In this document: positions 1 to 25,310 of the stretch, piece after piece | Numbering within the stretch: position 1 is the stretch's first letter | Layout: each line of letters starts with the position of its first letter | Notes under the pieces: model-generated | What the model was told of the DNA's origin: nothing | Seen by the model: only the letters and a program-made list of their open reading frames with translations | Databases searched by the model: none | Source: Gammaproteobacteria bacterium | Lineage (GTDB): Bacteria; Pseudomonadota; Gammaproteobacteria; SZUA-229 | Assembly: GCA_026196545.1 (NCBI GenBank) | Contig: JAPHSZ010000146.1 | Coordinates: 1 to 32,200 of the forward strand | Direction: 5' to 3' | DNA length: 32,200 nt | Program-made: the position numbers and the translations under genes

Positions 1-610
1 CCGGTTTAACAGTGACCTGATTGCCGGCTTCTGCAATCACTTTTCCAAATTCATTTTCTGCTTCAACCTGACCTTCAAGCACCGTTGACGTTACTGAACC
101 ATCCTCTTTTGCTTCAATAACTAACTCTGTACCACGAATACCAATTGTAGCTGTGGTGTTTGTAAAGCTAGCACGGACGTTTTTGTTCTTGTTTCTTGCC
201 CATAATTTACCCGAGAGCAAACTGAATACAGAACGGGATGCCTTTTTGAGGCTTTTTGCAATAACTGATTTTTCAAACCAGCCTGCATTTTTAGCTACGT
301 AATTAATTTCAAGTTTGGAGCTTCGCCCAACCTGTATGAGCGTTTCATCTGACATAACCAGGCTGGCTTTGCCATTGGCGCCAGTTCTAATCACATCACC
401 TGCATGCAGCAAGCTGCCCGTCTTTGCATAAATCCACTTGTTGCTTATGGCCTGGTAGATCTGCACCCTGCCCTGTTTTTTTACGACCTTTCCTTCAACA
501 GACGATTCTAATCTAGTGACTGTATTTGCATGAACTTGAGATGCTAAACAAAAAACAAAAATAATTAAATAGATAAAGCCGTTACGGTTAATTATGCTTT
601 TCAGAGACAT
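1..610 (-). CDS. FecR-domain protein, N-terminal part (runs off left edge)
   Basis: No stop occurs before the window edge, so the gene is partial at its 3' end. The visible part has a signal peptide ending near VHA, then a FecR-like domain. That domain has the segments LLHAGDVIRTGANGKASLVM, IGIRGTELVIEA and VLEGQVEAENEFGKVIAEAG. It is a close paralogue of the N-terminus encoded at 13720-10316, so the missing part may also carry TPRs and an outer-membrane barrel; this is inference. In-frame ATGs exist at 640, 625 and 610. I choose 610 because it aligns with the paralogue's start (MSLKSIINR against MFLLQCINR) and has GGAG nine bases upstream. The mature part is predicted periplasmic. It is divergent from the giant gene at 1118, with a 506-base region between them. 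FecR domains classically modulate sigma factors, but no sigma factor lies nearby and the domain directly follows a signal peptide, so that role is unlikely here. Confidence 0.85.
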   Translation of the reverse strand, partial: MSLKSIINRNGFIYLIIFVFCLASQVHANTVTRLESSVEGKVVKKQGRVQIYQAISNKWIYAKTGSLLHAGDVIRTGANGKASLVMSDETLIQVGRSSKLEINYVAKNAGWFEKSVIAKSLKKASRSVFSLLSGKLWARNKNKNVRASFTNTTATIGIRGTELVIEAKEDGSVTSTVLEGQVEAENEFGKVIAEAGNQVTVKP

Positions 611-701
611 TGATATGGACTCCATTTTTAATTTTTCCATTAATATTATTCCGCTTCTCATTATGTGTCATTTTGATATATGAAGATGATACTTGTGCCA
701 A

Positions 702-764
702 GAAGTTATAGAAGTTATAGAAGTTATAGAAGTTATAGAAGTTATAGAAGTTATAGAAGTTATA
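702..764. repeat. 7 perfect tandem copies of a 9-base unit
   Basis: The unit GAAGTTATA is repeated seven times with no mismatch. Read on the minus strand, towards the FecR-domain gene that starts at 610, each unit contains TATAAC, which resembles a -10 hexamer. The array lies about 90-155 bases upstream of that start. Perfect short tandem repeats can change copy number by slipped-strand mispairing, so promoter spacing or strength could vary; this is inference. The equivalent region upstream of the paralogue at 13720 has no such array. Confidence 0.95.
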
Positions 765-802
765 AATATAGCTAATAATTTATTTGCTCAATAATAAATT
801 AA

Positions 803-817
803 TGATAATTATTCTCG
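803..817. promoter_or_regulatory. Fur-like box
   Basis: The 15 bases TGATAATTATTCTCG fit the 7-1-7 Fur pattern (TGATAAT-N-ATTATCA) with two mismatches, both in the right half. AT-rich DNA produces such matches by chance. The call gains some weight because a similar box lies in the paralogous divergent region at 13798. Confidence 0.4.
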
Positions 818-852
818 TTTTTAATCATGCAAACATTTTTCTTTAAAAATAG

Positions 853-872
853 TAAGTTAAGCGTTTAACTTA
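853..872. promoter_or_regulatory. Perfect 8-base inverted repeat, possible operator
   Basis: TAAGTTAA and TTAACTTA flank the four bases GCGT. The arms are perfectly complementary. The site lies between the Fur-like box and the FNR-like dyad, so it could be a repressor site for either divergent gene. The regulator is unknown. Confidence 0.4.
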
Positions 873-956
873 ATTAAATTTATTAATAAATTTTTTTAAC
901 TATAAATATCTTTATACACGATTGTAAACGCTACTATATGATTGATATTAAATTAC

Positions 957-970
957 GTGACATTGATCAA
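957..970 (+). promoter_or_regulatory. FNR/CRP-family-like site upstream of giant gene A
   Basis: GTGAC-ATTG-ATCAA fits the FNR/Dnr half-site layout TTGAT-N4-ATCAA, with the right half perfect and three of five bases matching on the left. A -10-like TAAAAT begins 28.5 bases after the dyad centre (992-997), close to the spacing of a class II activator promoter. Related dyads lie upstream of the genes at 10030 and 14217, with conserved flanking bases (CAAGGTTT) in two of the three. Confidence 0.5.
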
Positions 971-1041
971 GGTTTATATAAATAGATAGAATAAAATTTT
1001 TGCTAATAATAAGATCAAATAAAATTAAAACGCCTATTTAT

Positions 1042-1088: not shown

Positions 1089-1117
1089 AAAGTATCGTAC
1101 ATGAAGGACTAAGTAAT

Positions 1118-4100: not shown

Positions 4101-7100
4101 CATTTGCTGATGCGCCAATTTCAATAGATGCTAATGATTTCTACGGTACCTGGTCAATAGAAGCCGTAGATATTGACCTGGATGGTGATCTTGATATTGT
4201 CACCGGTAATTTTGGCACACGTAATCGTCTATATGTCAATGATGGTTCAAATACATTTGGAACTTCGTCAGGAATAGATATTACAACAGATCAGCATTTT
4301 ACAAGAGATGTTGCAATAGGTGATGTGAATGGTGATGGTAAGCCTGATATTGTTGTTGCAAACACATCTCAGGTTAATCGTTTATATTTGAATGATGGCG
4401 TTGGAAACCCGTTTGATACCATACCTGCCTCAAGCATCTCAACGGATGCCGATCCAACCTTTTCTGTTTCTTTATTTGATATTGATAAGGATGGTGACTT
4501 GGACCTGATTGCAGCTAATGATGGATCCAGTGTTACGTCACCATCTATGCTCTATTTAAATAATGGAACAAGCGATCCATTTGGTGGTGTCACTGGAATT
4601 ATTTTAGTGCCAGGTTCTTATCCAATCAATTCCTCATCAGTTGCTGATCTTGACAAGGACGGTTCAAATGACATTATACTTGGAGGTTTTAATGCAACGA
4701 ATTTATTAATTCGATCTCAGCCATTTGATAATGCAAAAGGCTTTGCAGAATCATTAGAGGTTGATACTGACACTGATATTCTATATGCCACCCTTTCACC
4801 AACTCAAACAGTACTTAATCATACTTCAATAAACTGGTATTTAAGCAACAATGGTGGTATGAATTTTTATAAAGTTCAGCCAGGTATTGAGTTTCAATTT
4901 CCAACATTCGGTGATGATCTGAGGTGGAAGGTGGAGATGAATTCATTGACATCACTATATTCACCATATGTTGATGCATTAACTATTACAGCTCGATATG
5001 ATCACGATCAGGATCTGGTCGCTGATGATGTTGATATTTGTGTTGGTACCTATGACCCCGATCAGCTTGATAATGATACTGACAATTGGGGTCACGCTTT
5101 TGATGGTGGTGATGCCTGTGATATCGATGATGATAATGATGGTATTGCTGATACAGAAGACCTATTTCCGTTTAATTATGACGAGTCAGCCGACACGGAT
5201 GGTGATTGTGGTGCGATTGACTACAACCTGACCACCTCGGGTAATGGTTGTGGTGATGCTTCCGATTTAGATATTGATGGTGATGGCATAGAATTTGATG
5301 GCGTAGTACTTACTGGTGTAGTTGATGAGTTCCTGTTTAATGTGGCGCCCAGTATTAGCGGTTCCCCATCGACAGATGCGACACCTGATTCTGAATATTC
5401 ATTTACTCCAGTTATATCAGATGGTGGAGACGGCCCATCACTCACGGCCAGTTTGACCTTCTCAGGCGGTACTGAAACAAACTTGCCGAACTGGTTAAGC
5501 TTCAATACCAGTACTGGTGCATTAACTGGTGTACCATCCAATGATGATTATGGTACTCTGAGTAGTATTGTCATTACGGTAAATGACAGTGTCCAAACAG
5601 CTACGCTTGCCTCGTTCAATATCAACGTGCTCGATACGCGCGCACCGGAGACCTTTGCTGTACCGGGTGGTGGCAATTTTAATGAAGATACCACGGTCAC
5701 TATTGCCTGCTTTGAAAATATCGGTTCTGGTTGCGCCAGCATTCATTACACCACAGATGATACCGCAGAACTTTCTGCTTTCACAACCGTGGCTAGCTCT
5801 TCTACAACAGTCACCATCCCCTCAAGTGCTGGCAGTGCTAATTTAAGATTTTATTCAAAAGACGCTAGCGGTAATGTTGAAAATGTAAAAACTGAAACAT
5901 ATAACTTTGATCTTGATTACCCTGTCGTTTCAATTACAACACCGTCAGATGGCTCGATCATCCCGGGTCAAGGTGGAACCGTTGATTCGATTTCGGGTAG
6001 TTCATCAGATGTCGGCACGGGTATTGTCGATGTCTCTATTCAAATCTCTGATGGCACAAATTCAGTCCAGACATTTGGTGGCAGTCTTGTTTCAGGGGCT
6101 GCTGCATGGCTTTCTGTTTCAGGTGCAGATGGTGTATGGAGTTATGACACCACGGGTTTGAACTGGACCAGTGATACGGTTTATACCATCACGGCGCGGG
6201 CTATCGATGGCGCTGGTAATACTATTACTACAAGCCATAATTTCACTTTCTACAACACAGCCGCAGCGACAACCACGCTGGATCTGGCGTTGACTAATAG
6301 CAGTATTCCAAATGGTGAAACTACCGATGCGACACTTACATTCAATCGCCTGAATGATTTGAGTGCTGACCTAACTGGCGTTCCACTGGAACTGCATATC
6401 ACTAAACCAGATGCAAGTATTGTGGTCGTACATGGCAATGCTAATTTCAGTGGTAATTTGACTCTGTCGCAACTGGGTGATGGCAGTGATATCAGTTTCA
6501 CTGTTCCTGGTGTTTATTCAATGGTCGCTAAATTTACCGATACCACAACGTATCCAAATCTGGCAGCCACATCTTCAAACCCCGTTAATTTGCTGGTAGG
6601 CACCTCGGCCGGTTATGCGCTGCTCGTGCAGGGTAAACTGTCCAATGAAGAAGGCCTTGAGTCGCACAACAAAACTGCAAATCGTATTTACGAAACATTA
6701 AAAGATCGCGGCTTTGTTGATCAGGATATTTATTACTACAACTACGATATTAACCAGACCGGAGTTGATGGTGTGCCGGATAAAGCAACCATTCAAACAA
6801 CCCTGGAAGGTTTGGCGACCGAGGTACAGAATCGCCCTGCCCCGGTTTACGTCATCATGGTTGATCATGGTGGTAAAGCGCTGGATGGATTAGAAGCCCG
6901 CTTCTTTATGGATACAGAAACTATCACGCCGACTGAACTGGATCTGTGGCTGACTAATCTTGAAAACAATATGGATGCACTGGATGTTCAGCTCAAGGTT
7001 GATAATAAACGAGTTGTCATTATCGGTGCCTGTTACTCCGGGGGATTTATTTCAACTGTTTCCGGCGACAATCGTATCATCATCACCAGTGCCACCGAAG

Positions 7101-9718
7101 ATGAGCAGTCGTTCAAAGGACCACTGGAAGATGACAATATCCGCGTTGGTGAATACTTCCTCGAAGAACTGTTCCTCGAATTGGGCAAAGGTAATGACTT
7201 ACGTAGCGCATTCAAAATCGCAACGGCAAAGACCGAGGCGTACACAGCAAGCGGTGCCGAATCGGCAAATAGTGATAATGCGTATTTAGACACCGCTATC
7301 CAGCATCCACTATTAAATGATGATGCGGATAGCACACCTACTAATGCCTTATTTGATAACTCCTCTGATGGCCAGCTGGCTACTGACATCGTGCTTGGTT
7401 TCGATCAGGGTTCGCTCACCAACGATGCGTTTGTGCCTGCGGATATTGATAGCATAAGTGGTACCCAGTATCTGGATAAAAATACCAGCGTTGCCGACTT
7501 AACGTTGTACGCCAATGATCCAAGCCAAGTGAATCAGGCCTATGTTGAAATTCGAGCACCATCAACAACATTGTCCAGTGCGGTAGAAAGCACAACTGAA
7601 CAGTTATCCAATAACTATATTCGTCGTGCCTATCTGCCACCTGTGACTTCAACCGATCCCTATACGCTTAATTATGCAGATTTTGTACAGGCGGGTAAGT
7701 ATGAGATATTCAGCTATGTCAATGATCGTTTCACCGGAGCCCTGTCACCTGCTAAGCGTTCAGTTATATACAAGAATCGTGCAGATACCGCGCCAACGGG
7801 CATAGATCTCGATGGTGTTAATGATGTGCCAAATGCATTTAATTTACTGACGCCTGTAGATAATGCAACTGGCCAGACTATTGTTGGTTTTATCTGGGAG
7901 GCATCAATAGATCCTGATCAGGATGCAGTCACCTACAGCTTCTACCTTGCTGATGATGCAACGTTTACGACCTTTACCCAGGACAATGGTAATGGAACCT
8001 GTACTCAGTTAACTGCGCCCTATTTGCAAGAAGAACTGGAAAGCCCCAGCACCTTTGTCGATGTGCAGGCTCTATTGTGTGACTCAAGAAGCTACGTCTG
8101 GAAAGTGGAAGCCGTTGACGTCTATGGTTTACGCACTGCCAGTACACCATTCACTTACAACACTAATAATACGAATGCCGATGTCGGTGTGATTGTCGCC
8201 ATGGTTAAGAGTGCAACCACCAACCAGCAACTCACCGCCGCGAATATCGCCAACGGTTTTGGTGAAACGGCAATTGCCTCTGCCAGTGTTCTCTATAATG
8301 GCAACTATGTTCTGTTTACTTCTAATACGGGTGTTGGCCAGACGATTACCGCAACACTAGGCAGCTACGCACCTAAAGATGTGGTGATAGGTAGTGTTGC
8401 CAGTGGTGAAACGGTCGAAATCCTGTTTGATATGACGCCGGACTTATCACTTGATACAGACAGTGATGGCGTTATTGATACAGCCGATAACTGCCCAACT
8501 GTTGCTAATGGAGTCGCTCAGGACAATCAACTTGATACCGATGCTGATGGTGTGGGTGATGCCTGTGACACCGATGATGATGGTGACGGTATGCCGGACA
8601 CCTATGAAAATATCTATGCCTTCCTTGATCCTCTCAATGCCGGTGATGCTGCTCTTGATCAGGACAATGACACAATCATAAACCTTCACGAATATCAGGA
8701 TGGCACCAATCCTGAAGTATTCGACATCATTCCTTCTGATGTTGATGGTGATGTTATTGATGATTCGGTAGATAACTGCGTCAACATCTATAACCCTGAC
8801 CAGCTTGATACTGATGGTGATACACAGGGTGATGCCTGTGATAACGATGATGATGCTGATGGTATGCCAGATGCATTTGAATTACTCTATGGATTGAATA
8901 CATTAGTGAATGATGCCATCGGTGATCCCGACCTTGATGGTGTTAGTAATCTCAATGAATACCTTGATGGCACTAATCCCAACGTGGTTAATGGAGATAC
9001 CGTTGACAGTGACAGCGATAGTATCACTGATGTCTATGATAATTGCCCAGCCATTGCCAATGCACCACAGCTTGATACTGATGAAGATGGAGCTGGTGAT
9101 GCCTGTGATAATGATATTGACAATGATAGTTTCGCAAATGCCAGTGATGCATTTCCGTTAGATATTACTGAATGGTTAGACACTGATCTAGATACAATTG
9201 GTAACAATGCCGATTTCGATGATGATGGTGACGGCACACCTGACACCACTGATGCCTTCCCTCTGGATAGTACTGAGGATATAGATACCGACCGTGATGG
9301 TATAGGAAACAATGCAGACACCGATGATGATGGTGATGGCATACTTGATACCAATGACGCTTTCCCGCTTAATAGTGCTGAAGATATAGATACCGACCGT
9401 GATGGCATAGGAAACAATGCAGACACCGATGATGACAACGATGGTATGAGTGACGAGTTCGAAATACTCTACTCACTCAATCCGCTGGATGCCAGCGATG
9501 CGAATAGTGACAGCGATAATGATGGCAAGAGCAACCTGGAAGAATTTCAGGCCGGCACCAGTCCAAAAGCTGCAAACATAGATACAACCGATACGAGTGT
9601 AACAACTAGCAGCGGAACCAGTAGCAGTAGTAGCGGCGTATTACACCCACTACTATTACTGGCACTGTTAATCAATATCGGACTGTTTGGAAGGCGTTAC
9701 TCAAACTCAAAGTCTTAA
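1118..9718 (+). CDS. Giant secreted FG-GAP/VCBS propeller protein with C13-like peptidase domain (copy A)
   Basis: This 2866-residue exported protein starts at an ATG nine bases after AAGGA. A signal peptide ends near residue 39, and the mature N-terminus contains PGLPFTEDF. Residues about 100-1205 hold 21 FG-GAP/VCBS repeats (DxDxDGDxDL ... LYLNNGTxxPF), which bind Ca2+ and build seven-bladed propellers. Next come a Cys-containing Asp-rich segment (about 1293-1405), a putative-Ig (He_PIG-like) domain (1408-1505), a chitobiase-C-like domain (1505-1605), an Ig-like domain (1605-1712) and an MG2-like beta domain (1717-1828). A legumain-like C13 peptidase domain follows (about 1829-2057), with His1917 in VDHGG and Cys1972 in GACYSGGF. 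Ig- and FN3-like domains and a regulatory-CarboxypepD-like domain extend to about 2442, then thrombospondin-3-like Asp-rich repeats to about 2824. The end is Ser-rich, then hydrophobic (2841-2857), then Arg-Arg, like a C-terminal sorting or anchoring signal. It is probably a cell-surface or secreted Ca2+-dependent peptidase or adhesin; the substrate is unknown. Confidence 0.88.
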   Translation: MLTNNRSAKITARKSLIHLLALPVLTIVSLLQTTSTIAATPGLPFTEDFSDTALMNSSKSVASWDTKAQILVQSFRNARSGGLISSSASGKNISDDVLSAGAMDIGDVDGDGDPDLVLSDTFVGINIYLNNGTDEPFLNAVKQTITPPVSEINGDIPRVNDLALADIDNDGDLDLITAQSGQYADPTAVNLLYLNNGSGTPFDAVTPQKITEDLHSSQAVVVDDFNGDGYLDVVIGNDECCSQTLAKTTRLYLNNGTASPFAGVTGTDVSADEDITEDVHAADFNGDSLIDLLVINDTVTHKVYLNDGIGDPFDSAVAINVGAGTDSSDAAIGDMDADGDIDIVVATYGAVNLLYLNTGLADPFTGVVGINITDEVDYTYSIDVGDIDSDGDLDVIAGTSSGKTNKIFLNDGLSIPGFGTSGYQVSSDALGTLKVLFHDLDLDGDLDLVASNFDSVSRYYLNNITVNPFNDSPAVAVSDIESYTFSMQLVDLNKDGNLDIVDNNQVYLNNGTSLPFDSVTGTALGGSGNAIAIGDINGDGNIDIVLGKSGASQNIYYLNDGSGATFSNNLIGNSTFDANDTQQVALGDVDNDGDLDLVTANYAFTSTNGVSTRHNKLYLNNGTSEPFLNVQGIIIEPAVTNGYATKSVYLGDLNNDGNLDLISGAAPYSSKIFFGDGSSDPFNQATPISFGLSFEYINDIEAGDVDGDGDIDFITVASSPYHNRLYINDGSSTPFDGATGEDISSDDSTTNGIDLADVDTDGDLDIILAKTGNSTIIFNNGTSSPFSDKNEINLSEDSNVFFSIKTGDIDKDGDLDIVVGTGGVDSYYLNQSASTPVLAVKQNDSGVTIDATRTTAISDLNNDGYPDLITGNDGVNNLYINNQSLNPFFGVTPIPITSDNHNTYGIDVGDLNNDGHNDLVAGNVNGNSYYYLNDGNGLPFDSIANGEVIGTGATMSMGIDIADINQDGRLDIIIGNNQLDTLPNQIYINNGTGTPFADAPISIDANDFYGTWSIEAVDIDLDGDLDIVTGNFGTRNRLYVNDGSNTFGTSSGIDITTDQHFTRDVAIGDVNGDGKPDIVVANTSQVNRLYLNDGVGNPFDTIPASSISTDADPTFSVSLFDIDKDGDLDLIAANDGSSVTSPSMLYLNNGTSDPFGGVTGIILVPGSYPINSSSVADLDKDGSNDIILGGFNATNLLIRSQPFDNAKGFAESLEVDTDTDILYATLSPTQTVLNHTSINWYLSNNGGMNFYKVQPGIEFQFPTFGDDLRWKVEMNSLTSLYSPYVDALTITARYDHDQDLVADDVDICVGTYDPDQLDNDTDNWGHAFDGGDACDIDDDNDGIADTEDLFPFNYDESADTDGDCGAIDYNLTTSGNGCGDASDLDIDGDGIEFDGVVLTGVVDEFLFNVAPSISGSPSTDATPDSEYSFTPVISDGGDGPSLTASLTFSGGTETNLPNWLSFNTSTGALTGVPSNDDYGTLSSIVITVNDSVQTATLASFNINVLDTRAPETFAVPGGGNFNEDTTVTIACFENIGSGCASIHYTTDDTAELSAFTTVASSSTTVTIPSSAGSANLRFYSKDASGNVENVKTETYNFDLDYPVVSITTPSDGSIIPGQGGTVDSISGSSSDVGTGIVDVSIQISDGTNSVQTFGGSLVSGAAAWLSVSGADGVWSYDTTGLNWTSDTVYTITARAIDGAGNTITTSHNFTFYNTAAATTTLDLALTNSSIPNGETTDATLTFNRLNDLSADLTGVPLELHITKPDASIVVVHGNANFSGNLTLSQLGDGSDISFTVPGVYSMVAKFTDTTTYPNLAATSSNPVNLLVGTSAGYALLVQGKLSNEEGLESHNKTANRIYETLKDRGFVDQDIYYYNYDINQTGVDGVPDKATIQTTLEGLATEVQNRPAPVYVIMVDHGGKALDGLEARFFMDTETITPTELDLWLTNLENNMDALDVQLKVDNKRVVIIGACYSGGFISTVSGDNRIIITSATEDEQSFKGPLEDDNIRVGEYFLEELFLELGKGNDLRSAFKIATAKTEAYTASGAESANSDNAYLDTAIQHPLLNDDADSTPTNALFDNSSDGQLATDIVLGFDQGSLTNDAFVPADIDSISGTQYLDKNTSVADLTLYANDPSQVNQAYVEIRAPSTTLSSAVESTTEQLSNNYIRRAYLPPVTSTDPYTLNYADFVQAGKYEIFSYVNDRFTGALSPAKRSVIYKNRADTAPTGIDLDGVNDVPNAFNLLTPVDNATGQTIVGFIWEASIDPDQDAVTYSFYLADDATFTTFTQDNGNGTCTQLTAPYLQEELESPSTFVDVQALLCDSRSYVWKVEAVDVYGLRTASTPFTYNTNNTNADVGVIVAMVKSATTNQQLTAANIANGFGETAIASASVLYNGNYVLFTSNTGVGQTITATLGSYAPKDVVIGSVASGETVEILFDMTPDLSLDTDSDGVIDTADNCPTVANGVAQDNQLDTDADGVGDACDTDDDGDGMPDTYENIYAFLDPLNAGDAALDQDNDTIINLHEYQDGTNPEVFDIIPSDVDGDVIDDSVDNCVNIYNPDQLDTDGDTQGDACDNDDDADGMPDAFELLYGLNTLVNDAIGDPDLDGVSNLNEYLDGTNPNVVNGDTVDSDSDSITDVYDNCPAIANAPQLDTDEDGAGDACDNDIDNDSFANASDAFPLDITEWLDTDLDTIGNNADFDDDGDGTPDTTDAFPLDSTEDIDTDRDGIGNNADTDDDGDGILDTNDAFPLNSAEDIDTDRDGIGNNADTDDDNDGMSDEFEILYSLNPLDASDANSDSDNDGKSNLEEFQAGTSPKAANIDTTDTSVTTSSGTSSSSSGVLHPLLLLALLINIGLFGRRYSNSKS
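9146..9460 (+). repeat. Three 105-base in-frame repeats in giant gene A
   Basis: Three 35-residue units each begin DAFPL and contain IGNNAD and DDD. Units two and three are nearly identical in DNA, including the stretch GATATAGATACCGACCGTGA at both. Each is a thrombospondin-3-like calcium-binding unit. The near identity suggests recent duplication, and loss or gain of a unit would keep the reading frame. Confidence 0.85.
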
Positions 9719-9899: not shown

Positions 9900-9922
9900 T
9901 TTATATTTTATGGATTATTTTC

Positions 9923-10029: not shown

Positions 10030-10215
10030 ATGAATAAGTTTAAAACAGCAGCACATCGTGGCGTTGAACAGTTAGAAATAGAAATAGAAAAATTTATGAA
10101 CAGTATTGATACTGATGAAATTATAAGAATAAAATTTTTGGAGCAATCCGCTAAATATCTTAATGTTTTTGTTGATAGTGATTTAGATAAATCCATGCCT
10201 TCTAGCTTACATTAA
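10030..10215 (+). CDS. Small protein, KFLEQSAKY family (copy A)
   Basis: This 61-residue cytoplasmic-type protein has no signal peptide or membrane segment. I recognise no known family. Its core (DEIIRIKFLEQSAKYLNVFVD) closely matches the core of the 63-residue protein at 25119-25310, with the nine residues KFLEQSAKY identical in both; the flanks are unrelated. That conserved core is good evidence that this is a real gene. The N-terminal half is charged and probably helical (VEQLEIEIEKFM). The ribosome-binding site is weak: GAGG is 17 bases upstream, with GCGAG closer. It follows giant gene A and has its own FNR-like dyad. It could be a small adaptor or regulator of the module; this is speculation. 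Confidence 0.7.
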   Translation: MNKFKTAAHRGVEQLEIEIEKFMNSIDTDEIIRIKFLEQSAKYLNVFVDSDLDKSMPSSLH

Positions 10216-13720: not shown

Positions 13721-13783
13721 TTTTAACTCCTTTTTTCCTTTTTTGTTATTTTTCAATAATGAAAGTACATCACTATTTCATTC

Positions 13784-13799
13784 CATTTGCATACAAATG
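13784..13799. promoter_or_regulatory. Inverted repeat CATTTG-CATA-CAAATG
   Basis: The six-base arms are perfect and surround four bases. The site is 64 bases upstream of the FecR-TPR-barrel start and touches the Fur-like box, so it is placed to control that gene. It resembles the 14-base palindrome at 9886. Confidence 0.4.
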
Positions 13800-13812
13800 A
13801 AAATAATTCTCA
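13798..13812. promoter_or_regulatory. Fur-like box
   Basis: TGAAAATAATTCTCA matches the 7-1-7 Fur pattern with two mismatches, and a further CATTAT follows directly. It is 78 bases upstream of the ATG at 13720, within promoter range of the minus-strand FecR-TPR-barrel gene. Confidence 0.4.
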
Positions 13813-14024
13813 TTATTAAATCTAAAATATTGACCTGCATAGCCTGACTAAAACAGTGCTAAATTATTACTAAAAAACTACGGCAAATTAGATATTTGCA
13901 TATTGAATATGGCTCAGACTAAAAGTAAACTCCCGCTGCCGGTAGCGCATACAAATTAGATAATAAACCAATTGCCTAACGTTATTTACAGGTGTGAATA
14001 CTAAAGCTTGATAATAAAAAATTT

Positions 14025-14038
14025 GTGATATTGGTCAA
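14025..14038 (+). promoter_or_regulatory. FNR/CRP-family-like site upstream of giant gene B
   Basis: GTGAT-ATTG-GTCAA matches TTGAT-N4-ATCAA at four of five bases in each half; the GTCAA half is the form often seen in Dnr/Nnr-type sites. It shares its spacer (ATTG) and following bases (GGTTT) with the dyad at 957. -10-like TATATA lies at 14057-14062. Confidence 0.5.
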
Positions 14039-14216
14039 GGTTTTCCAATATAAACCTATATAGGCTAAAGTCTGAGTGGCGATTTTTTTGTAGTCATAAT
14101 AACTGGCTCGCCATGATCACGTAAATACGACTGTTTATTTTCGTGACTGCTAGCTCTAAAAACACATGATATACGTGTGTTGCGGCTAAATTTATAACAT
14201 TCTAAGGATTGGTTGT

Positions 14217-17200: not shown

Positions 17201-20200
17201 GGCTGATATTGATAATGATGATGATATCGATATCATGGTTGGTAATAATGGGAGCAACTACACCTACCTAAATAATGGCACGGGCACATCATTCTATAAA
17301 TGGGAGTTTTATAGCGGCGCACCGGGAACAGATACTCAAAATTCTTATGGAATTGCTATTGGCGATGTTAATGGTGATGGTTGGCCAGATGCCGTAGTGG
17401 GCAATTATGGCACTGTCAACAAACTTTATATCAATGACACGCTAAGTAACCCGTTTACAAACGCCGGCATTGACATAACGACAGATGCAGACTATACATT
17501 AGATATTCTACTGGAAGATATTGATAACGATGGCGACTTAGACGTAATTGTTTTCAATGCTTCTGGAGTTAATAAGTATTATCTAAATAATGGCACTGCT
17601 ACACCTTTTTCTGATGCAGTGGGTATTGAACTTACAACATCAAGCAAAACATCTTATGGTGCTGTAGCAAGGGATTTTGATAATGATGGCGTAAAAGATT
17701 TTGTCGTTGCTAACTATACGCTTAGTAACGACCTGTTCAGGTCTAGTCCATATGCTTTAAACAAAAACAAAGTCATTTCAGAAGAAGTTGATACCGATAC
17801 CGATATCCTCAAGGCAACATTAAATGGATACGTGCCGCTAGACTGGAACAACTCTGTGGATTTCTATATGAGCAATAATGGCGGCACACAGTTTTTCCAG
17901 GTACAGCGCGGAGTAGAATTTACTTTCCCAACCCAGGGTGACGACCTTCGCTGGAAAGCAGAATTGCACTCTTTGACACCGCTCAGATCTCCTCTCATCG
18001 GTGATGTAGTCATTGATGCAAAAGTTGACCACGATCTCGATTTTGCGACAGATGATATTGATTTATGCATAGGAACAGCTGACCCAGACCAGCTTGATAA
18101 CGACAGTGATGCAGTGCCGGGCGTGTCTACAGGGCCAGATGATGGTGGCGATGCCTGTGATATTGACGACGACAATGATGGTGTTGGTGATACTGAAGAC
18201 CTGTTCCCGTTCAACTCTGCTGAACAAGGTGATTACGATGGTGACTGCGGTGCTATCGACTACAACCTGCCTACTTCTGGTGATGGCTGTGGTGATAATT
18301 CCGATACCGACATTGATAACGACGGCATTCCTAATGTTTCTGATACGTTTATGTTCAATGTTGCACCGACTATTAGTGGCACACCCGGCACGGTAGCGAC
18401 ACCTGAAAATACTTACACGTTTACACCGGCAATTTCTGATGGCGGTGATGGCCCAACCCTTTCAGTATCTGTAACAGCAGATGGCGGCTCACTGCCAGCA
18501 TGGCTCACCTTTAATCCTGCCACAGGCGTATTAACAGGCGTACCTTCTAACGATAACTACGGCACGATCAGTAATATTGTTCTGACCGTGAGTGATGGCA
18601 CCGAACAGGTCAGCCTGCCTGCATTTAATATCAAGGTGATCGATACACGTGCACCCGTGACCAACGCCTCACCCAAAGAAGGTGTATACAACTCCGATAT
18701 TAGCGTTTACCTGTCCTGTAGTGATGGTATTGGCTCAGAGTGTGCAAACATCTATTACTCAACTGATGGAGGCATGCAATATAACCTGGCGCTTGATTAT
18801 GCAATTATTGATATCCCCGCGAGTAGTCACGAAACGATATTAAAATATTACTCCGTCGATAACGCAGACACTCCAAATTATGAAGTTGAACAGACTCAGG
18901 TATATACCTTTGATAACGGCCTTCCTGTTGTTACGATTACTTCACCTGTAGCGGACTCAATCTTAACTTCTGTGAATTCTATTAATGGTAGTTCATCGGA
19001 CAATGCAGACTTTGATACCGGAATTAAGAAAATCGAGCTACAGATTACCGATGGCATTAACTCAGTACAGGTGACAGGTGGATCTTTGGTTGAAGGTGCG
19101 CCTGCATGGATTCTAGTGAGCGATGATATTGGTGCGTGGAGCTATGACTGGAGCTACAATACTGAGGGTTTGTGGACCAGTAGTGAGGTGCCCTACACCA
19201 TCACTGCACGCGCCACAGATTATGCGGGCAACACAGCCACCACTAGTGTGACTTTCTCTTACTTCTCAGGCACACCCGCGACCACCACACTGGATTTATC
19301 ACTGACCAACACCAGTGTTCCCGTTGGCCAGACCACCGATGCATTCTTAACATTAACCCGTTTGAATGATCTGAATGCAGACCTGACAGGCATACCACTA
19401 GAACTGCACATCACAAAACCAGATGGGTCACCTGTTGATCCTCTCATCATAGATGAGGCTAACTATACAGGTAACCTGACCCTGTCTGACCTGGGTGATG
19501 GTGTAGATGTTATTTTTGATCAGGCCGGTGTTTATTCGATGGTCGCTAAATTCACCGACACCGCTACCTACCCTAACCTGGCAGCCTCGACCTCCAACCC
19601 CATTAGTTTACTGGTGGGTACGTCTGCTGGTTACGCCATTATTATCCAGGGTAAACTTTCTAATGAAGAAGGCCTGGATTCGCATAACAAAACGGCTAAT
19701 CGTATTTACGAGACCTTTAAAGATCGCGGCTTTGCTGAAGAGGATATCTTCTACTTTAACTATGACACCAACCAGACCGGTGTAGATGGCCTGCCGGATA
19801 AAGCCACTATCCAGAAACTGATTGAAGGTTCCGCCAATGGTGTAAGTGATCCACAATTACTCCAGGACTTAATCCCCAATGGCCTGGCTGCGGAGATTGA
19901 TGACCGCCCTGCTCCTGTTTACCTGGTTATGGTTGATCATGGCGGTAAGGCTGTTGATGAGCTGGAAGCACGTTTCTTCATGAATGATGAAACCATACTG
20001 CCAAGCGAACTCAACCTGTGGCTGGGTAGTCTTGAAGCCAACATGGATGCATTAGATGCTCAGCTTAAAATAGATAACAATCGTATTATTATCATCGGTG
20101 CCTGTTACTCGGGCGGCTTTATCTCAGGCATCACTGGTGATGGCCGTATTGTAATTACCAGTGCTACTGGGGATGAACCTTCTTATAAGGGGCCGATAGA

Positions 20201-23009
20201 AGACGATAACATCCGTGTCGGTGAGTACTTCCTCGAAGAGCTGTTCCTTGAGCTGGGTGAAGGTAACAACTTGCGTGACGCTTTCAAAGTCGCTACAGTC
20301 AAAACTGAAACCTACACCAAGGAAGTCAGTGGTGACACGTCAACCAACAGTGACAATGAGTTCCTCGATACCGCCGTGCAGCATCCATTACTGGATGATG
20401 ATGCCGATGGTTTAGGCACCAACGCCCTGTTTGATAGCTCATCAGACGGCCAGAGCGCACTTGATGTGGTGCTTGGTTTTGATCAGGGGTCATTGACCAA
20501 CGATGCCTTCATTCCTGCTGCTGTTGAGAGTGTGAGTGGCACCCAGTATCTGGATAATGCTACCAGCAATGCGGTGCTAACGATGTATGCCAATGACCCT
20601 TCTCAGGTCAATCAGGCTTACGTTGAGATCCGTACACCAGGAACGGTACTTATTGATGCGGTAGAAAGCACCACTGAGCAGTTATCCAGTGACTTCATTC
20701 GCCGTGCTTATACTCCCCCAGCAGCACCGGGTGAGCCGTATACGCTCGACTACACTGCATTTACTGAAGCGGGTAAATACGAGATATTCAGTTATGTGAA
20801 TGATCGTTTCACGGGTGCATTATCATCAGCTAAACGCTCAATCATTTACAAGAACCGTGAAGATGGCGGTGATCCCAATGATCCACCTACGCCATTTAAC
20901 CTGCAAACTCCAACTAATGGTGACACAGGCCCATATATCACCGCCTTCACCTGGGATGCATCGACCGATCCTGATCAGGATGCGGTGACCTACAGCTTCT
21001 ACTTGGCGGATGACACCAGCTATACCACCTTCACCAAAGATACTGGCAGTGGCTGTACCCAGCAAAATGCGCCTTATGTCCAGGAAGAACTCACCAGCCC
21101 AAGCACCTTCGTTGATGCCGTAGCGGGACTCTGTGATGGCCAGAGCTACGTCTGGAAAGTTGTCGCGGTCGATCCTTATGGATTAAAGGCCGTTAGCGCT
21201 AACTTCAGCTATACCGTTAGTAATCACCTCAATGCCGATCTTGGTGTGATCGTGGCCATGGTCAAGAGCGCCACCACCAATGCACAGTTAACGGCAGCTA
21301 ATGTTATTAATAGTTTTGGAGAAACAGCTACCCCAGCAGAAAGTGTTTTGTATAACGGTAACTATGTGTTAATTACAGGTAACACGGGTACAGGCCATAC
21401 CATTACTACAAACAAGACTGGATATTCAGAAACCGAGGTAAGCATACCTAATATCAACAGCGGTCAGACGGTTGAGATCCTGATTGACATGCCACCAGTG
21501 ACTGTTGATAGTGATAGTGATACTGTTTATGACAACGTAGATAACTGTCCGGTCGATGTTAATGTCAGTCAGGCTGATTTAGATAATGATGGTGTCGGTG
21601 ATGCTTGTGATGATGACATCGACGGTGATGGCATGCCCAATAATTATGAAGATAGTTATGTCTTCCTCGATCCATTAGTTGCGAGTGATGCAGGTCTGGA
21701 TGAAGATGGTGACACCCTCAGTAATCTTACCGAATATCGTGATGGTACCAATCCTGGCGTATTCAATGTAATTCCATCAGATATTGATGGCGACACCATT
21801 GATGATACGATCGATAACTGCGTGGATATATCTAACCAGGATCAGGCTGATTATGATGGTGATGGCCTGGGCAATGTCTGTGATTATGATGACGATGATG
21901 ATGGCATGCCCGACAGTTATGAACAGGACTACGCCTTCCTAAATACACTCGATGCAGCAGATGCCTCTTTAGATGAAGATGGTGACAGCATGAGTAACCT
22001 TGTTGAGTATCTTGGCGGTACCGATCCTGGCGTATTCAATCTACCTGATACGGATGGTGATGGTATTGACGATACCGTTGATAACTGCCTGTATATTTAC
22101 AACCAGGATCAGGCTGATTATGACAGTGATGGCATAGGCAATGTCTGTGATCATGACGATGATGATGATGGCATGCCGGACAGTTTTGAAGAGAGCTACG
22201 CCTTCCTAAATACACTCGATGCAGCAGATGCCTCTTTAGATGAGGATAGCGATACCATGAGTAATCTTGAAGAATATTTGGGTGGTACTGACCCCAGTGT
22301 GTTTGATCTACCTGATACAGATGGTGATGGTGTTTATGATATATTTGATAACTGTCCAGATGTATATAACAACAAACAAAAAGATTACGACAGTGATGGC
22401 ATCGGTGATAAGTGTGATGATGATGATGACAACGACGGTATGTCAGATGCCTTTGAAGATCAGTACAAGAGCAATGGTCTGGATCGGCTCGATGAGACCG
22501 ATGCCTCTGAAAACATAGATGGTGATGCCTTTACCAATCTTGAAGAGTTTCTGTTTGGTACGAACCCGGCAGTCACCAGCCTTGATAACGATAGTGATGG
22601 GTTACCTGACACCTTCGAGCTTGCAGTAGGCACTGATTACACCATCGCTGACAGTGATGGTGATAACTTAACCGACTATGAAGAAATTAACTACGACGGT
22701 GATCTTTACAGTTATACTCCCGGCAGTGACACTGATCCCAACAATGTTGATACCGATGGTGACACATTCCAGGATGATATAGACGTAAATCCGTTAATAC
22801 CAGATGTTATTGGTGATATTGCTCCAGTATCCACACCTGATAGCACTGTTAATGCAGCAGACTATTTGCTTATGATACGGATTGTACAAGGTGAGATAAC
22901 ACCAACAGCTGAACAACTGCAAAATGGTGATTTATACCCTGTTGGCTCACCTGACGGTGTGATTAATATACAGGATCTTATCTTGTTGCGACAGATGGTC
23001 ATGCCGTAG
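14217..23009 (+). CDS. Giant secreted FG-GAP/VCBS propeller protein with C13-like peptidase and dockerin domains (copy B)
   Basis: This 2930-residue paralogue of the product of 1118-9718 has an ATG eight bases after AAGGA and a signal peptide ending at AYA, near residue 38. Residues about 95-1182 hold 21 FG-GAP/VCBS repeats, the same number as copy A. Then come the Cys-containing Asp-rich segment (about 1270-1385), Ig-like domains (1379-1680), an MG2-like domain (1688-1800) and the C13-like peptidase domain (about 1800-2038). The peptidase has His1908 in VDHGG and Cys1963 in GACYSGGF. Compared with copy A it has an insertion before the His strand (NGVSDPQLLQDLIPNG). Ig/FN3/CarboxypepD-like domains reach about 2428, followed by thrombospondin-3-like repeats. 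The last 65 residues (2866-2930) form a dockerin-like pair of Ca2+ loops (GDIAPVSTPDSTVNAAD and GDLYPVGSPDGVINIQD) in place of copy A's hydrophobic tail. B is probably held at the surface by a cohesin-type partner, while A may be membrane-anchored; this is inference. Confidence 0.88.
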   Translation: MIFTTRSFGILPCKLSTLILGLPVLFITIALYQSSAYANEPGLPFTEEFIDADLRAVGTTANWDTLDQFVKLGKRSPKKLGLTADTSTGMDVSSNLYSTFAVKLADINGDGTNDIITGNYVYIRDPDTFDSYASIIHLSDATNTIRSIDTGDIDQDGDLDIVFGAQGINLLYFNNGTDTPFEGVSKTYITSDNDYTVSIQAIDVNGDGWLDVVVGNEYTNDRLYINNGTSNPFDGVTAQTFGEPSSARTNAVMVADIDYDGNNDIVSVYNNGQTGTNVKYILNNGSSTEPFLGQTSKDISNITNGELQNIDLGDVNGDKYIDIVVSGEIDSGVPSYLFINNSANTPGTPFDTSTSAISISSDTDRSVGIHLLDADDDGDLDVYVANYSARGKLYVNDGSNEPFGASLEGIDISNDSIVAHSSGIGDIDNDGDIDIVVGANGIDRLYLNNSSSSAFDGIADDISTDADQSRGLAYGDVDNDGDIDIITSGLSTQAKLYKNNGTNKPFDGVSATIITDAHSGAYLVYLADINHDGRLDLINGGASGQLSEIFFNNGSSTPYTAANMQTFGVSTFVLDIATGDVNNDGKTDLIQGTRLYLNDGTSTPFSSGGIDIDSGGFDKALGDVDNDGDLDLVEATLSGAWLYLNDGDSTPYSNGKIEIGTGLQSNSIELYDLNQDGYLDAIIGSFDDYTRVVLNDGTSTPFDGNAMYLGTNTASTDIKLGDFNLDGIIDIASVNEDGKRVEVLYPDVSDYTFVNSWRVPTNFASDEAISGYKLAVADFSNDGKPDIVVAANGINRIYYNQSASAGYSSITRSQVASSTGAYRSLDVTAADFNNDGALDVAFANYDTSTYPNTVVLNNKTSSPFGGSYPATIPYTLQYLDTDKHSSWGIDSGDITGDGYPDIVVANTSAASRVYTNDGTGLFGSTSGYNLGSGTTARDVKLADLNGDGRLDAVLANYSTTLDNQIFLNNGSSYALSVTPISVYTGDAHYSMTVELADIDNDDDIDIMVGNNGSNYTYLNNGTGTSFYKWEFYSGAPGTDTQNSYGIAIGDVNGDGWPDAVVGNYGTVNKLYINDTLSNPFTNAGIDITTDADYTLDILLEDIDNDGDLDVIVFNASGVNKYYLNNGTATPFSDAVGIELTTSSKTSYGAVARDFDNDGVKDFVVANYTLSNDLFRSSPYALNKNKVISEEVDTDTDILKATLNGYVPLDWNNSVDFYMSNNGGTQFFQVQRGVEFTFPTQGDDLRWKAELHSLTPLRSPLIGDVVIDAKVDHDLDFATDDIDLCIGTADPDQLDNDSDAVPGVSTGPDDGGDACDIDDDNDGVGDTEDLFPFNSAEQGDYDGDCGAIDYNLPTSGDGCGDNSDTDIDNDGIPNVSDTFMFNVAPTISGTPGTVATPENTYTFTPAISDGGDGPTLSVSVTADGGSLPAWLTFNPATGVLTGVPSNDNYGTISNIVLTVSDGTEQVSLPAFNIKVIDTRAPVTNASPKEGVYNSDISVYLSCSDGIGSECANIYYSTDGGMQYNLALDYAIIDIPASSHETILKYYSVDNADTPNYEVEQTQVYTFDNGLPVVTITSPVADSILTSVNSINGSSSDNADFDTGIKKIELQITDGINSVQVTGGSLVEGAPAWILVSDDIGAWSYDWSYNTEGLWTSSEVPYTITARATDYAGNTATTSVTFSYFSGTPATTTLDLSLTNTSVPVGQTTDAFLTLTRLNDLNADLTGIPLELHITKPDGSPVDPLIIDEANYTGNLTLSDLGDGVDVIFDQAGVYSMVAKFTDTATYPNLAASTSNPISLLVGTSAGYAIIIQGKLSNEEGLDSHNKTANRIYETFKDRGFAEEDIFYFNYDTNQTGVDGLPDKATIQKLIEGSANGVSDPQLLQDLIPNGLAAEIDDRPAPVYLVMVDHGGKAVDELEARFFMNDETILPSELNLWLGSLEANMDALDAQLKIDNNRIIIIGACYSGGFISGITGDGRIVITSATGDEPSYKGPIEDDNIRVGEYFLEELFLELGEGNNLRDAFKVATVKTETYTKEVSGDTSTNSDNEFLDTAVQHPLLDDDADGLGTNALFDSSSDGQSALDVVLGFDQGSLTNDAFIPAAVESVSGTQYLDNATSNAVLTMYANDPSQVNQAYVEIRTPGTVLIDAVESTTEQLSSDFIRRAYTPPAAPGEPYTLDYTAFTEAGKYEIFSYVNDRFTGALSSAKRSIIYKNREDGGDPNDPPTPFNLQTPTNGDTGPYITAFTWDASTDPDQDAVTYSFYLADDTSYTTFTKDTGSGCTQQNAPYVQEELTSPSTFVDAVAGLCDGQSYVWKVVAVDPYGLKAVSANFSYTVSNHLNADLGVIVAMVKSATTNAQLTAANVINSFGETATPAESVLYNGNYVLITGNTGTGHTITTNKTGYSETEVSIPNINSGQTVEILIDMPPVTVDSDSDTVYDNVDNCPVDVNVSQADLDNDGVGDACDDDIDGDGMPNNYEDSYVFLDPLVASDAGLDEDGDTLSNLTEYRDGTNPGVFNVIPSDIDGDTIDDTIDNCVDISNQDQADYDGDGLGNVCDYDDDDDGMPDSYEQDYAFLNTLDAADASLDEDGDSMSNLVEYLGGTDPGVFNLPDTDGDGIDDTVDNCLYIYNQDQADYDSDGIGNVCDHDDDDDGMPDSFEESYAFLNTLDAADASLDEDSDTMSNLEEYLGGTDPSVFDLPDTDGDGVYDIFDNCPDVYNNKQKDYDSDGIGDKCDDDDDNDGMSDAFEDQYKSNGLDRLDETDASENIDGDAFTNLEEFLFGTNPAVTSLDNDSDGLPDTFELAVGTDYTIADSDGDNLTDYEEINYDGDLYSYTPGSDTDPNNVDTDGDTFQDDIDVNPLIPDVIGDIAPVSTPDSTVNAADYLLMIRIVQGEITPTAEQLQNGDLYPVGSPDGVINIQDLILLRQMVMP
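21505..22600 (+). repeat. Four in-frame repeats of about 267-273 bases in giant gene B
   Basis: Modules of about 89-91 residues recur, each with a DNC motif, a Ca2+-binding CD-DDDD-DGMP(D/N) or similar segment, and a SNLxEYxxGT(D/N)P end. The two central copies share long near-identical DNA, for example the bases encoding YAFLNTLDAADASLDE at about 21930 and 22200. They are thrombospondin-3-like. Such repeats could recombine to change protein length in frame. Confidence 0.8.
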
Positions 23010-23062
23010 TAGTGTTGTTTATATTAATAGTACTGGTACTGGTAATATTTATAAATTGAATA

Positions 23063-23078
23063 CAGGATAGTTATCCTG
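23063..23078 (+). other. Short perfect hairpin between giant gene B and lipoprotein gene
   Basis: CAGGAT-AGTT-ATCCTG forms a six-base stem with a four-base loop, 35 bases before the lipoprotein start. The following bases are A-rich rather than a clean T run, so it is more likely an RNA-processing or stability element than a terminator. Confidence 0.4.
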
Positions 23079-23113
23079 AAACATTTTAAAAAGGATTAAA
23101 GAGGTATTTTATT

Positions 23114-24016
23114 ATGAAGACGCTGAAGATATTGTTAGCCCTGCTGCTAGTGAACTTAATGGGTTGCGCTGGCCATCAAACATTTAATCATCTGGCTCGT
23201 TCAAACGATACTGTGGCAGTTGCGGCAGGATGGATGCAAACATTTTCACGGGATAGGATAAGGGTGACCATTACAGATGATGATGGAACAGGAACGCAGA
23301 CAGTCTATGAGCCTGGTGACCCTAACATACGCGCGGTTATTAACCTGTATCCTGATCCACTGTCGAATATAGTTGTGTCACGCGAAACGGGAGACGCAGT
23401 ATCTCCAGGTGCAGTTGATTACGCTTCTCAAATTGATTATTGGTACACTCATGGTGATGATGACTGGTGGCAAACAATTGTGTATGTAAACCTGCCCAGT
23501 AATATGACTATAGATAAGGATGCCACCATACTGATTGAGTCCATTGACCCAGTTACAGCTGAGGTAGTAGAAACAGCGAGTTCATTTGTTTCTATCGTGT
23601 CAGGCGTTGGTGAAGCGGCCCCATTTTCTGCACAAAACCCCTGGGGCGGTGGATCTTATTTTAATATGACTTCTGACAACTTAAAATCCCTGGAAAGATC
23701 AGGTCACTACCAAATTGATTTTGATGGGACAGAAATACCTGCGGCCTTATCATTAGAAATAACACATGCTGCGGGTAATGTATTTGTAGCGAACCCCACA
23801 AGTGAAAAAAAGAACCTTCACTGGACGGATGATGGTGTAACCACAAAAATAATTATATTGCCGACAACATCAGCGGGTTTCACTGATTTAGCTGACCTCA
23901 AGTTTTATATAAGCGGGCTTAATATTGATAACGTTGTTGTTTCGAACTTTGAGGCCTATGACCAGAATGGAGATGTGATAGCAACTGTGACGGCTAATAC
24001 GCCTACTAAACGATAA
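23114..24016 (+). CDS. Outer-membrane-type lipoprotein, possible cohesin-like domain
   Basis: The protein has 300 residues; GAGG lies nine bases upstream of the ATG. The signal peptide ends in a lipobox (LMGC, Cys18), and Ala at position +2 suggests Lol sorting to the outer membrane. I recognise no named family with certainty. The rest reads as two beta-rich domains. Its C-terminal 90 residues run beta strand (IPAALSLEITHAAG), loop, strand (TKIIILPTT), then GFTDLADLKFYISG and VVVSNFEAYDQNGDVIA. This resembles the last strands of cohesin modules, where a VxFxxxG strand precedes a DxNGxxx end. It directly follows giant gene B (104-base gap, no convincing terminator), which ends in a dockerin-like module, so it may be that protein's surface receptor. 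The cohesin assignment is inference. Confidence 0.75.
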   Translation: MKTLKILLALLLVNLMGCAGHQTFNHLARSNDTVAVAAGWMQTFSRDRIRVTITDDDGTGTQTVYEPGDPNIRAVINLYPDPLSNIVVSRETGDAVSPGAVDYASQIDYWYTHGDDDWWQTIVYVNLPSNMTIDKDATILIESIDPVTAEVVETASSFVSIVSGVGEAAPFSAQNPWGGGSYFNMTSDNLKSLERSGHYQIDFDGTEIPAALSLEITHAAGNVFVANPTSEKKNLHWTDDGVTTKIIILPTTSAGFTDLADLKFYISGLNIDNVVVSNFEAYDQNGDVIATVTANTPTKR

Positions 24017-24158
24017 TCTGATCTAAGTAGAATGACTAATGAGCAAATTACGATTAAGGGTAAAGGAACATCGCTACAACATTGGTTGAATAGCTAGAAA
24101 AAGATTCACACTTCATCACAAATACAGAAGCATAGACATGCTGTGTACAGCTACGTGA

Positions 24159-24845
24159 TTAAGCTGCAACCTCCATCGCCACACAATTTTTACCGTTATC
24201 CTTTGATTTCATCAATGCGTCATTGGCACGTTCAAAGAGTGTGTCAGGCGTATCGCCTTCCGTTCTGAACTGGGCCACACCAAAGCTGCAGGTCAGATGA
24301 ATAGTTGAATGCATTGGCGTACGACTTATTTTGATGCACAAACGTTTAGCAATATTTGATGCCGCTACCAGATCATTTCGATCCACCATCAAGGCAAATT
24401 TACCATCACCATGACGGGCAACAATGTCATGAGTACGTTTCGTGTTATTCATTATAAGTTCACTTAAGCTGATTAAAACCTCATCACCAACGCTATAGCC
24501 ATAAACGGTATTAATGCTATTAAAATAATCAACATCAATCAGAATGAGTGAAAAGTTAACCTTGTTTTCACACCAGGATTTAAGCTTCTTCCGATAATAC
24601 GAACGGCTAAACGCCTGCGTCAGTGGATCGCGTTCATTCTCCTTCTGCAGATCAATAATCAGCAGAAACAAGCTGGCAGTTAATAGCCCAAGGATAAGCC
24701 CGGTCCCACTCAGCGCTGCAATATGCAGAAGCTTAACCTGGTTAGTCATCAACAGATACATGCCTGCGCCTAATGATAAAACCAGCCAGAAAAAAATGGA
24801 ATTCATATAAATATAATTAGTGTGTGATTTAGTTATAGTCATCAT
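24159..24845 (-). CDS. Membrane protein with degenerate GGDEF domain
   Basis: This 228-residue protein has two N-terminal membrane helices (about 14-33 and 41-64) and one cytoplasmic GGDEF domain (70-228). Most family signatures are present: DPLTQAFSR, LIDVDYFNSINTVYGYSVGDEVL and CSFGVA. The catalytic signature, however, reads GDGKF (146-150) where GGDEF or GGEEF is expected, so the catalytic acidic residue is Lys149. The RxxD inhibitory c-di-GMP-binding site (R137-D140, RTHD) is intact and correctly spaced. It is therefore probably a c-di-GMP receptor rather than a cyclase. AGGGA lies about nine bases before ATG 24845; a second ATG follows directly. It is convergent with the lipoprotein gene and divergent from the small gene at 25119. 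Confidence 0.88.
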   Translation of the reverse strand: MMTITKSHTNYIYMNSIFFWLVLSLGAGMYLLMTNQVKLLHIAALSGTGLILGLLTASLFLLIIDLQKENERDPLTQAFSRSYYRKKLKSWCENKVNFSLILIDVDYFNSINTVYGYSVGDEVLISLSELIMNNTKRTHDIVARHGDGKFALMVDRNDLVAASNIAKRLCIKISRTPMHSTIHLTCSFGVAQFRTEGDTPDTLFERANDALMKSKDNGKNCVAMEVAA

Positions 24846-25118
24846 GAATAAATCCCTGTTTAGTTATTTATTGATTGTTGTATCACAAAAAATAAAAAAC
24901 ACTGCCATAGTTTTTTCATAGTTTTTATTATGATTCTAAAAAAAGACAGCACATGGTCGGCACTATTGATGAGAAGGGAATTAAATTGTTTTTATCTATG
25001 TAAAAAAACAACCAAAAATAATAACTGTAAAATTACTGTGTTTTATGCTTCTGCATTCTCACTATAATTTAATTTTGGTTATTCGTTATATTTTTGAACA
25101 TAAACCAGAGGTGGGAAA

Positions 25119-25310
25119 ATGAAAAATAATAAATCAATAAATAGTACCGGCACAGCAGCTATTCCCAATAAGAAAAATCCCAGGCACATCATTAACAATG
25201 ATGACGTAATAAAAATGAAATTTCTGGAACAGTCAGCAAAATATTTTGGCGTATACGTAGAATACAGGCCTGCTGATTATCGTTACAGGGATGAACCAGT
25301 CATTAGTTAA
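25119..25310 (+). CDS. Small protein, KFLEQSAKY family (copy B)
   Basis: The 63-residue product has a core, DDVIKMKFLEQSAKYFGVYVE, paralogous to that of the 61-residue protein at 10030. The N-terminus is Asn/Lys-rich and looks disordered; the C-terminus is Tyr/Arg-rich (YRPADYRYRDEP). There is no signal peptide. The start has a good ribosome-binding site (AGAGGTGGG, about four bases before the ATG). The next gene begins 31 bases downstream on the same strand, so the two may be co-transcribed. No known family was recognised. Conservation with copy A argues that it is expressed and functional. Confidence 0.75.
   Translation: MKNNKSINSTGTAAIPNKKNPRHIINNDDVIKMKFLEQSAKYFGVYVEYRPADYRYRDEPVIS

Follow-up and report, generated by a model that had tools for sequence, protein, structure and literature searches.

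An NsrA-type outer-membrane receptor that may be coupled to giant C13-peptidase proteins in a recurrent envelope module

The contig JAPHSZ010000146.1 of a gammaproteobacterium of the SZUA-229 lineage (assembly GCA_026196545.1) carries, twice in tandem, a minus-strand gene for a FecR-TPR-beta-barrel protein that diverges from a plus-strand gene for a giant protein with FG-GAP repeats and a C13 peptidase domain. This arrangement raises the question of what the barrel protein does for the giant and whether the two work together at all. The window, i.e., the stretch of 32,200 nucleotides that was analysed, is the whole contig (C218 of genome G000, a fragmented assembly of 2.67 Mb), and its left edge is the contig end. 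The pairing of both genes is well supported, and it may represent a conserved envelope module in which an NsrA-type outer-membrane receptor is coupled to a secreted C13 giant in place of an adenylate cyclase, a reading to which we give an even chance. The two pairs consist of the following features:

2-661, minus strand: FecR A, cut by the edge; N-terminal 220 amino acids with signal peptide and FecR domain (Pfam FecR, 5e-11), the rest lying on contig C177
1118-9718, plus strand: giant A, 2866 amino acids; signal peptide, FG-GAP, He_PIG, C13, TSP3 and hydrophobic tail
6569-7780, plus strand: C13 module of giant A and the Ig-like part that follows it; legumain/GPI8-like by profile and Foldseek
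9539-9715, plus strand: GlyGly-CTERM-like C-terminal tail of giant A, recognized by eye
10316-13756, minus strand: FecR-TPR-beta-barrel protein B (FecR B), 1146 amino acids, assigned by sequence to the NsrA family; Pfam FecR and TPR, barrel profile, C-terminal Phe
10319-12079, minus strand: C-terminal beta-barrel part of FecR B, residues 560-1146; its profile matches TonB-dependent receptors
14217-23009, plus strand: giant B, 2930 amino acids; built as giant A, with a dockerin-like end and without the hydrophobic tail
19587-20858, plus strand: C13 module of giant B (Pfam), His and Cys conserved
22827-23006, plus strand: dockerin-like C terminus of giant B (Dockerin_1, 2.7e-4; NCBIfam dockerin, 0.013)

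A Pfam scan of the window proteins revealed FecR, TPR, He_PIG, Peptidase_C13 and TSP3 domains and 17-18 FG-GAP_3 stretches; FecR was found in both minus-strand proteins and TPRs, as read within the window, in the complete one. The giants align over nearly their full length (2928 columns) with 47% identity, which rises to 75% in the C13 part, and the N-termini of FecR A and FecR B share 75% identity over 207 amino acids. An initial annotation, made from the sequence alone, had described this duplicated divergent arrangement, and the open reading frames, the Pfam domains and the paralogy of the giants, the FecR N-termini and two small proteins all agree with it. It had also asked whether FecR A continues into TPRs and a barrel beyond the left edge. 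The 17 bases at the end of the FecR A frame are also the first of contig C177, an exact overlap of the contig ends, and the joined frame encodes, without a stop, a FecR-TPR-barrel protein of 1145 amino acids, followed by a CDF transporter gene.

The initial annotation had taken the joint duplication as a sign of a functional unit. This argument was given up, since neighbouring genes are copied together in a tandem duplication even if they do not cooperate; the unit itself is supported by the recurrence of the pair in other genera and gene orders, by the phylogeny of the barrels and by co-occurrence. In the genus of the window (g1), the pair is found in three species with conserved flanks and a CDF gene on the barrel side: twice in G000, once in G001, whose giant has 3409 amino acids, and once in G003, with the giant cut off by the end of the contig. 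All four loci show the divergent order, and no match to the pair was found in G006, a genome of the same genus that is 98% complete. In g167, a genus of another family, barrel and giant genes share a strand, with the barrel gene immediately upstream, in G189, G431 and G437 (107 bases between the two genes in the last); the barrel frame is interrupted in G189, and the giant of G189 and G431 has an interrupted frame and is divided by contig ends. G620, which shares only the phylum, has an FG-GAP-C13 protein directly upstream of the barrel gene. In g167, C13 proteins and barrels are present in the same four of eight genomes.

A phylogenetic analysis placed the barrels of the C13-carrying genomes in one clade of 11 with a support of 100/100, apart from all cyclase-linked barrels, in agreement with an earlier sample. 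Of the ten clade members whose flanks are visible, eight lie next to a giant or C13 protein, in three gene orders, compared to none of 38 barrel loci outside the window's group, which have no giant gene nearby (Fisher's exact test, 1.2e-7, a value that overstates the case because the rows are not independent and a C13 search supplied several of them). Whether the pairing exceeds chance was a question posed by the initial annotation, and with this reservation it does. A class-wide search with the barrel profile was not selected for C13, and the clade members placed there, the window genome and G189, both have giants. Homologues of the giant without a barrel neighbour, which had been named as a possible refutation, do occur in the wider C13 family: by search, the barrel is absent from the C13-carrying genomes G212, G485, G526 and G596, and no barrel gene was found on C13-bearing contigs of Geobacteraceae and Deltaproteobacteria. 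However, every FG-GAP-C13 giant of the A/B clade with a visible 5' flank has a barrel gene. A broader rule, according to which FG-GAP on a C13 protein would indicate a barrel in the genome (p 0.002 by motif count), was dropped, because the barrel-less G485 has an FG-GAP-C13 protein and the C13 protein of G434 is a different paralogue.

What kind of protein, then, is the barrel protein? The C-terminal 590 amino acids of FecR B had no Pfam match as a single query; in the PDB, TonB-dependent receptors were matched by a profile built from 19 relatives (5fok, 7e-11), and seven of the 19 profile members match Pfam TonB_dep_Rec. The full-length Pfam scan of the protein revealed no plug family and no Slam match, and the PgaA model matched only the TPR part, with 20 bits against a cut-off of 367. 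Membership in the Slam or PgaA exporters was therefore set aside, the PgaA match being confined to the generic TPR part, and the barrel is classed by its profile as TonB-receptor-like and without a plug. The class-wide search found barrel matches in 49 of 369 gammaproteobacterial genomes, about one in eight. At 27 of the 38 loci outside the window's group, a CHASE2 adenylate cyclase is encoded at a distance of a few genes at most, usually as the immediate upstream neighbour and in the same orientation, and at 16 of 38 a CRP-type regulator lies nearby. The same architecture is present in a plasmid-encoded protein of Sinorhizobium meliloti (L163; 1209 amino acids, FecR 9e-15, TPRs and a barrel-profile match of 1e-12), which is followed by a CHASE2 cyclase; the window protein matches it with 1e-19 over the FecR-TPR part in blastp and with 1e-12 by the barrel profile. 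Based on the neighbouring cyclase, the replicon and the length, L163 would be nsrA. NsrA is an outer-membrane protein with a barrel at residues 600-1200, which acts with the cyclase CyaK and perceives a plant protein signal (PMC7529298, PMC13001267), and it is the only studied FecR-TPR-barrel protein found in the literature, despite the spread of the family. By these matches, FecR B belongs to the NsrA family. The view of the initial annotation that no named system has this composition therefore no longer applies to the barrel protein; it holds for the pairing with a C13 giant, of which no description was found.

The window proteins share with the NsrA-CyaK-Clr system of S. meliloti the combination of FecR, TPRs and a C-terminal barrel in one protein of around 1100-1200 amino acids. 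However, nsrA is followed by a CHASE2 cyclase, while the window barrel adjoins a C13 giant, has no cyclase nearby and falls into a separate clade; indeed, no CHASE2 cyclase is adjacent to the barrel at any of the 11 C13-clade loci. CHASE2 proteins are encoded elsewhere in G000 in other contexts. An NsrA-type neighbouring cyclase for the window barrel was set aside, because there is none and a genus-mate without the module also has CHASE2 proteins. The FecR-FecA surface signalling system likewise combines a FecR-type domain with a TonB-receptor-like barrel; the window system differs in that both reside in one polypeptide, which has TPRs and no plug domain, and in that no sigma factor is encoded next to it. 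Some genomes have two or three NsrA-type barrel genes (loci L131, L149 and L156); at L131 and at L149 these genes are clustered near one CHASE2 cyclase. The comparison suggests that the window encodes a known kind of envelope receptor with a changed partner.

This partner is a multidomain protein. Giant A consists of a signal peptide, an FG-GAP region, a He_PIG Ig domain, the C13 domain, a TSP3 stalk, a Ser-rich linker, a hydrophobic segment and a basic tail. Around 20 FG-GAP motifs with a spacing of about 52 amino acids are located ahead of the C13 domain (residues ~107-1177), a number that would be enough for about three propellers. Pfam Peptidase_C13 is matched by the two giants with 27.8 and 27.0 bits (cut-off 22.8). 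In profile searches of the PDB, the C13 module hit GPI transamidase and legumain (1e-5 to 1e-3), and Foldseek paired the fold predicted for it (pLDDT 76) with legumain at 7e-10; asparaginyl ligases are also among the matches by profile and structure. The catalytic His-Gly and Cys align with those of legumain and Gpi8 (His ~1917 and Cys ~1971 in giant A), and His100 and Cys155 are invariant in nine homologues. The fold class and the catalytic residues thus point to a legumain-fold peptidase, which would be proteolytically active, and which differs from the legumain and Gpi8 members of peptidase family C13 (clan CD) in being embedded in a giant bacterial protein. In the window proteins, the position of the S1 arginine of legumain, Arg44, is occupied by Ser, and two residues ahead of the Cys, Gly takes the place of Glu. 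Since the S1 Arg is replaced by Ser, asparaginyl specificity is not expected of the window C13 domains, and another specificity is expected. A search of the literature for the combination of C13 with FG-GAP found no report. Genomes of other Proteobacteria encode the C13 module several times over, on scaffolds that include SLH, RTX, cadherin and beta-helix (L162, L223-L234); these C13 proteins form a broad family that is probably located at the cell surface.

How would the giant reach the surface, and is the barrel required for it? The giants of G001, G437 and G189 have the same C-terminal order as giant A, from linker through hydrophobic segment to basic tail. G000 encodes a rhombosortase (142 bits, cut-off 84) and the secretin GspD (600 bits, cut-off 351) on the same contig and in the same cluster; at this locus (L243, on contig C28), the rhombosortase gene lies on the opposite strand inside the type II secretion cluster. 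GlyGly-CTERM-type tails give surface display in Vibrio (PMC6219818). The protease VesB of Vibrio cholerae shares with giant A the signal peptide, the linker-hydrophobic-basic tail and a rhombosortase in the type II secretion cluster; however, the tail of giant A is Ser-rich and not scored by the family model, giant B has no such tail, and VesB is a serine protease of another family. On these features, the giant is probably displayed on the surface. A related but different FG-GAP-C13 giant of G434 (L169/L057, contig C87) has a scored GlyGly-CTERM tail and is followed, as judged by eye, by a TolC-like gene. With type II secretion and rhombosortase in the genome, the barrel need not be an exporter. 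A role of the barrel protein as the outer-membrane secretion channel of the giant, comparable to Slam or PgaA, would be in line with the TPR-barrel architecture and the conserved pairing; however, the barrel is TonB-receptor-like, most family members occur beside cyclases without any giant, and the Slam and PgaA comparisons offer no help, so that this explanation appears distinctly improbable. The initial annotation had left the choice between exporter and sensor open, and family, barrel type and secretion genes all favour the latter.

The C terminus of giant B is unlike that of giant A, its Dockerin_1 match lying 1.4 bits below the curated cut-off. The gene for a lipoprotein-like protein that follows (23114-24016) has a paralogue with 34% identity (L241, positions 5731-6684 of contig C167) directly before a TSP3-dockerin protein, and because of this arrangement elsewhere in the genome, the lipoprotein-like protein and the dockerin-like end may form an anchor pair. 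Alternatively, the FecR-TPR-barrel protein itself could keep the giant at the surface, as an anchor or assembly factor of the outer membrane without any role in signalling. Adjacency, clade and co-occurrence fit this explanation equally well, the long TPR region is suited to protein binding, and giant B, lacking the hydrophobic tail, would need another hold. However, giant A and its relatives have their own sorting-like tail, the genomes have rhombosortase, and the single studied family member acts as a receptor (PMC7529298); a pure docking function is therefore regarded as unlikely, although it deserves serious attention.

For a receptor coupled to the giant, the following working can be proposed. 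The periplasmic FecR and TPR domains would precede a plugless TonB-receptor-like barrel, and the genetic partner, in the rest of the family usually an inner-membrane CHASE2 adenylate cyclase, would be the C13 giant in the clade of the window. The giant, in which the C13 peptidase is placed between the FG-GAP propeller region and a calcium-binding TSP3 stalk, would leave the cell by Sec and type II secretion and then be retained on the surface, in A-type giants by rhombosortase processing of the tail and in B-type giants perhaps by the dockerin-like end holding the neighbouring lipoprotein. The propellers would bind a target or the barrel and the C13 domain would cut protein, and the barrel may in turn bind the giant or its products outside and pass its state to the periplasm via TPR and FecR. 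The role of the barrel for the giant is inferred, and it is tempting to speculate that the receptor family was rewired in one clade from an adenylate cyclase to a surface protease, the barrel sensing the giant or its cleavage products in a proteolysis-coupled outer-membrane signalling; this specific form of the proposal is tentative and somewhat unlikely.

Several observations weigh against a coupled module. No transducer for a periplasmic signal is encoded next door, the NCBIfam GlyGly-CTERM model (TIGR03501) gives no score to the tail of giant A or of the G001 giant and exceeds its cut-off only in a relative, the L057/G434 paralogue, and a barrel structure predicted from two sequences only reached a pLDDT of 27; it was not used, and the barrel assignment is based on the profile matches. 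The association in g167 amounts to 4/4 versus 0/4 genomes (p 0.03), the barrel gene of G434 lies at a contig end, where its neighbour is not visible, barrel and C13 genes are apart in G482 and G593, and the recurrence comes from few independent lineages (g1, g167 and g374), some of which were found via the C13 search first. The last two points would also fit a cyclase-less NsrA-like gene and a giant adhesin or peptidase that share a locus through descent and transfer of one island without any joint work; the fact that three congeneric species have kept the locus, including the CDF gene beside the barrel gene, fits this as well. Three gene orders, the frequent adjacency within a separate barrel clade and the matching presence in g167 argue against such mere neighbourhood, which is considered quite improbable. 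If one clade indeed works with a surface peptidase in place of a cyclase, the family would be a general outer-membrane receptor with exchangeable partners, and a direct comparison of the two clades would show whether the partner is contacted by the barrel, the TPRs or FecR; a legumain-fold peptidase would then also be placed on the bacterial surface in a defined genetic context.

Are both copies maintained? FecR A and FecR B differ with a dN of 0.17 and a dS of 1.6 (dN/dS around 0.1), and in the giants the C13 part is conserved and the FG-GAP part has diverged fast (dN 0.62, dS near saturation). The low dN/dS of FecR, the conserved C13 part and the diverged FG-GAP part indicate, at the level of substitutions, that both copies are kept under purifying selection while the propeller surfaces change. 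FecR A and FecR B are sisters in the FecR tree (99/94); in the C13 tree, giant B is sister to the giant of G001 (100/99) with about 90% identity, and the flanks of C13 and the tail of the G001 giant (L056) resemble giant A. From these conflicting histories, it seems that the giants have probably recombined or that gene conversion has occurred between the copies.

The remaining features of the module are as follows:

662-1117, intergenic: divergent intergenic region A, with 7.1 perfect copies of AGAAGTTAT at 701-764
10030-10215, plus strand: small protein sA, 61 amino acids; paralogue of sB, homologue in G001, convergent with the 3' end of FecR B
13757-14216, intergenic: divergent intergenic region B
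23114-24016, plus strand: lipoprotein-like protein, 300 amino acids; LMGCAG lipobox by eye, no Pfam family
24159-24845, minus strand: GGDEF protein, 228 amino acids
25119-25310, plus strand: small protein sB, 63 amino acids; paralogue of sA

The accessory genes that the initial annotation had assigned to both copies are asymmetric: the small proteins accompany both, and the lipoprotein and GGDEF genes are found only after giant B. sA and sB share a 24-amino-acid core with 58% identity (score 81, compared to at most 55 in 5000 shuffles). The core I.[IM]KFLEQSAKY is common to sA, sB and the homologue in G001 (L050, 6984-7169), which converges on the 3' end of the FecR gene there in the same way as sA does on that of FecR B. 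The 9-mer AGAAGTTAT, present in seven perfect copies upstream of FecR A, is absent from the intergenic region of copy B; the array is possibly a promoter or leader element of variable length. Further downstream, a HAMP-GGDEF-EAL protein is encoded at 26896-29013 in a stretch with a GC content of 58%, compared to around 40% in the module.

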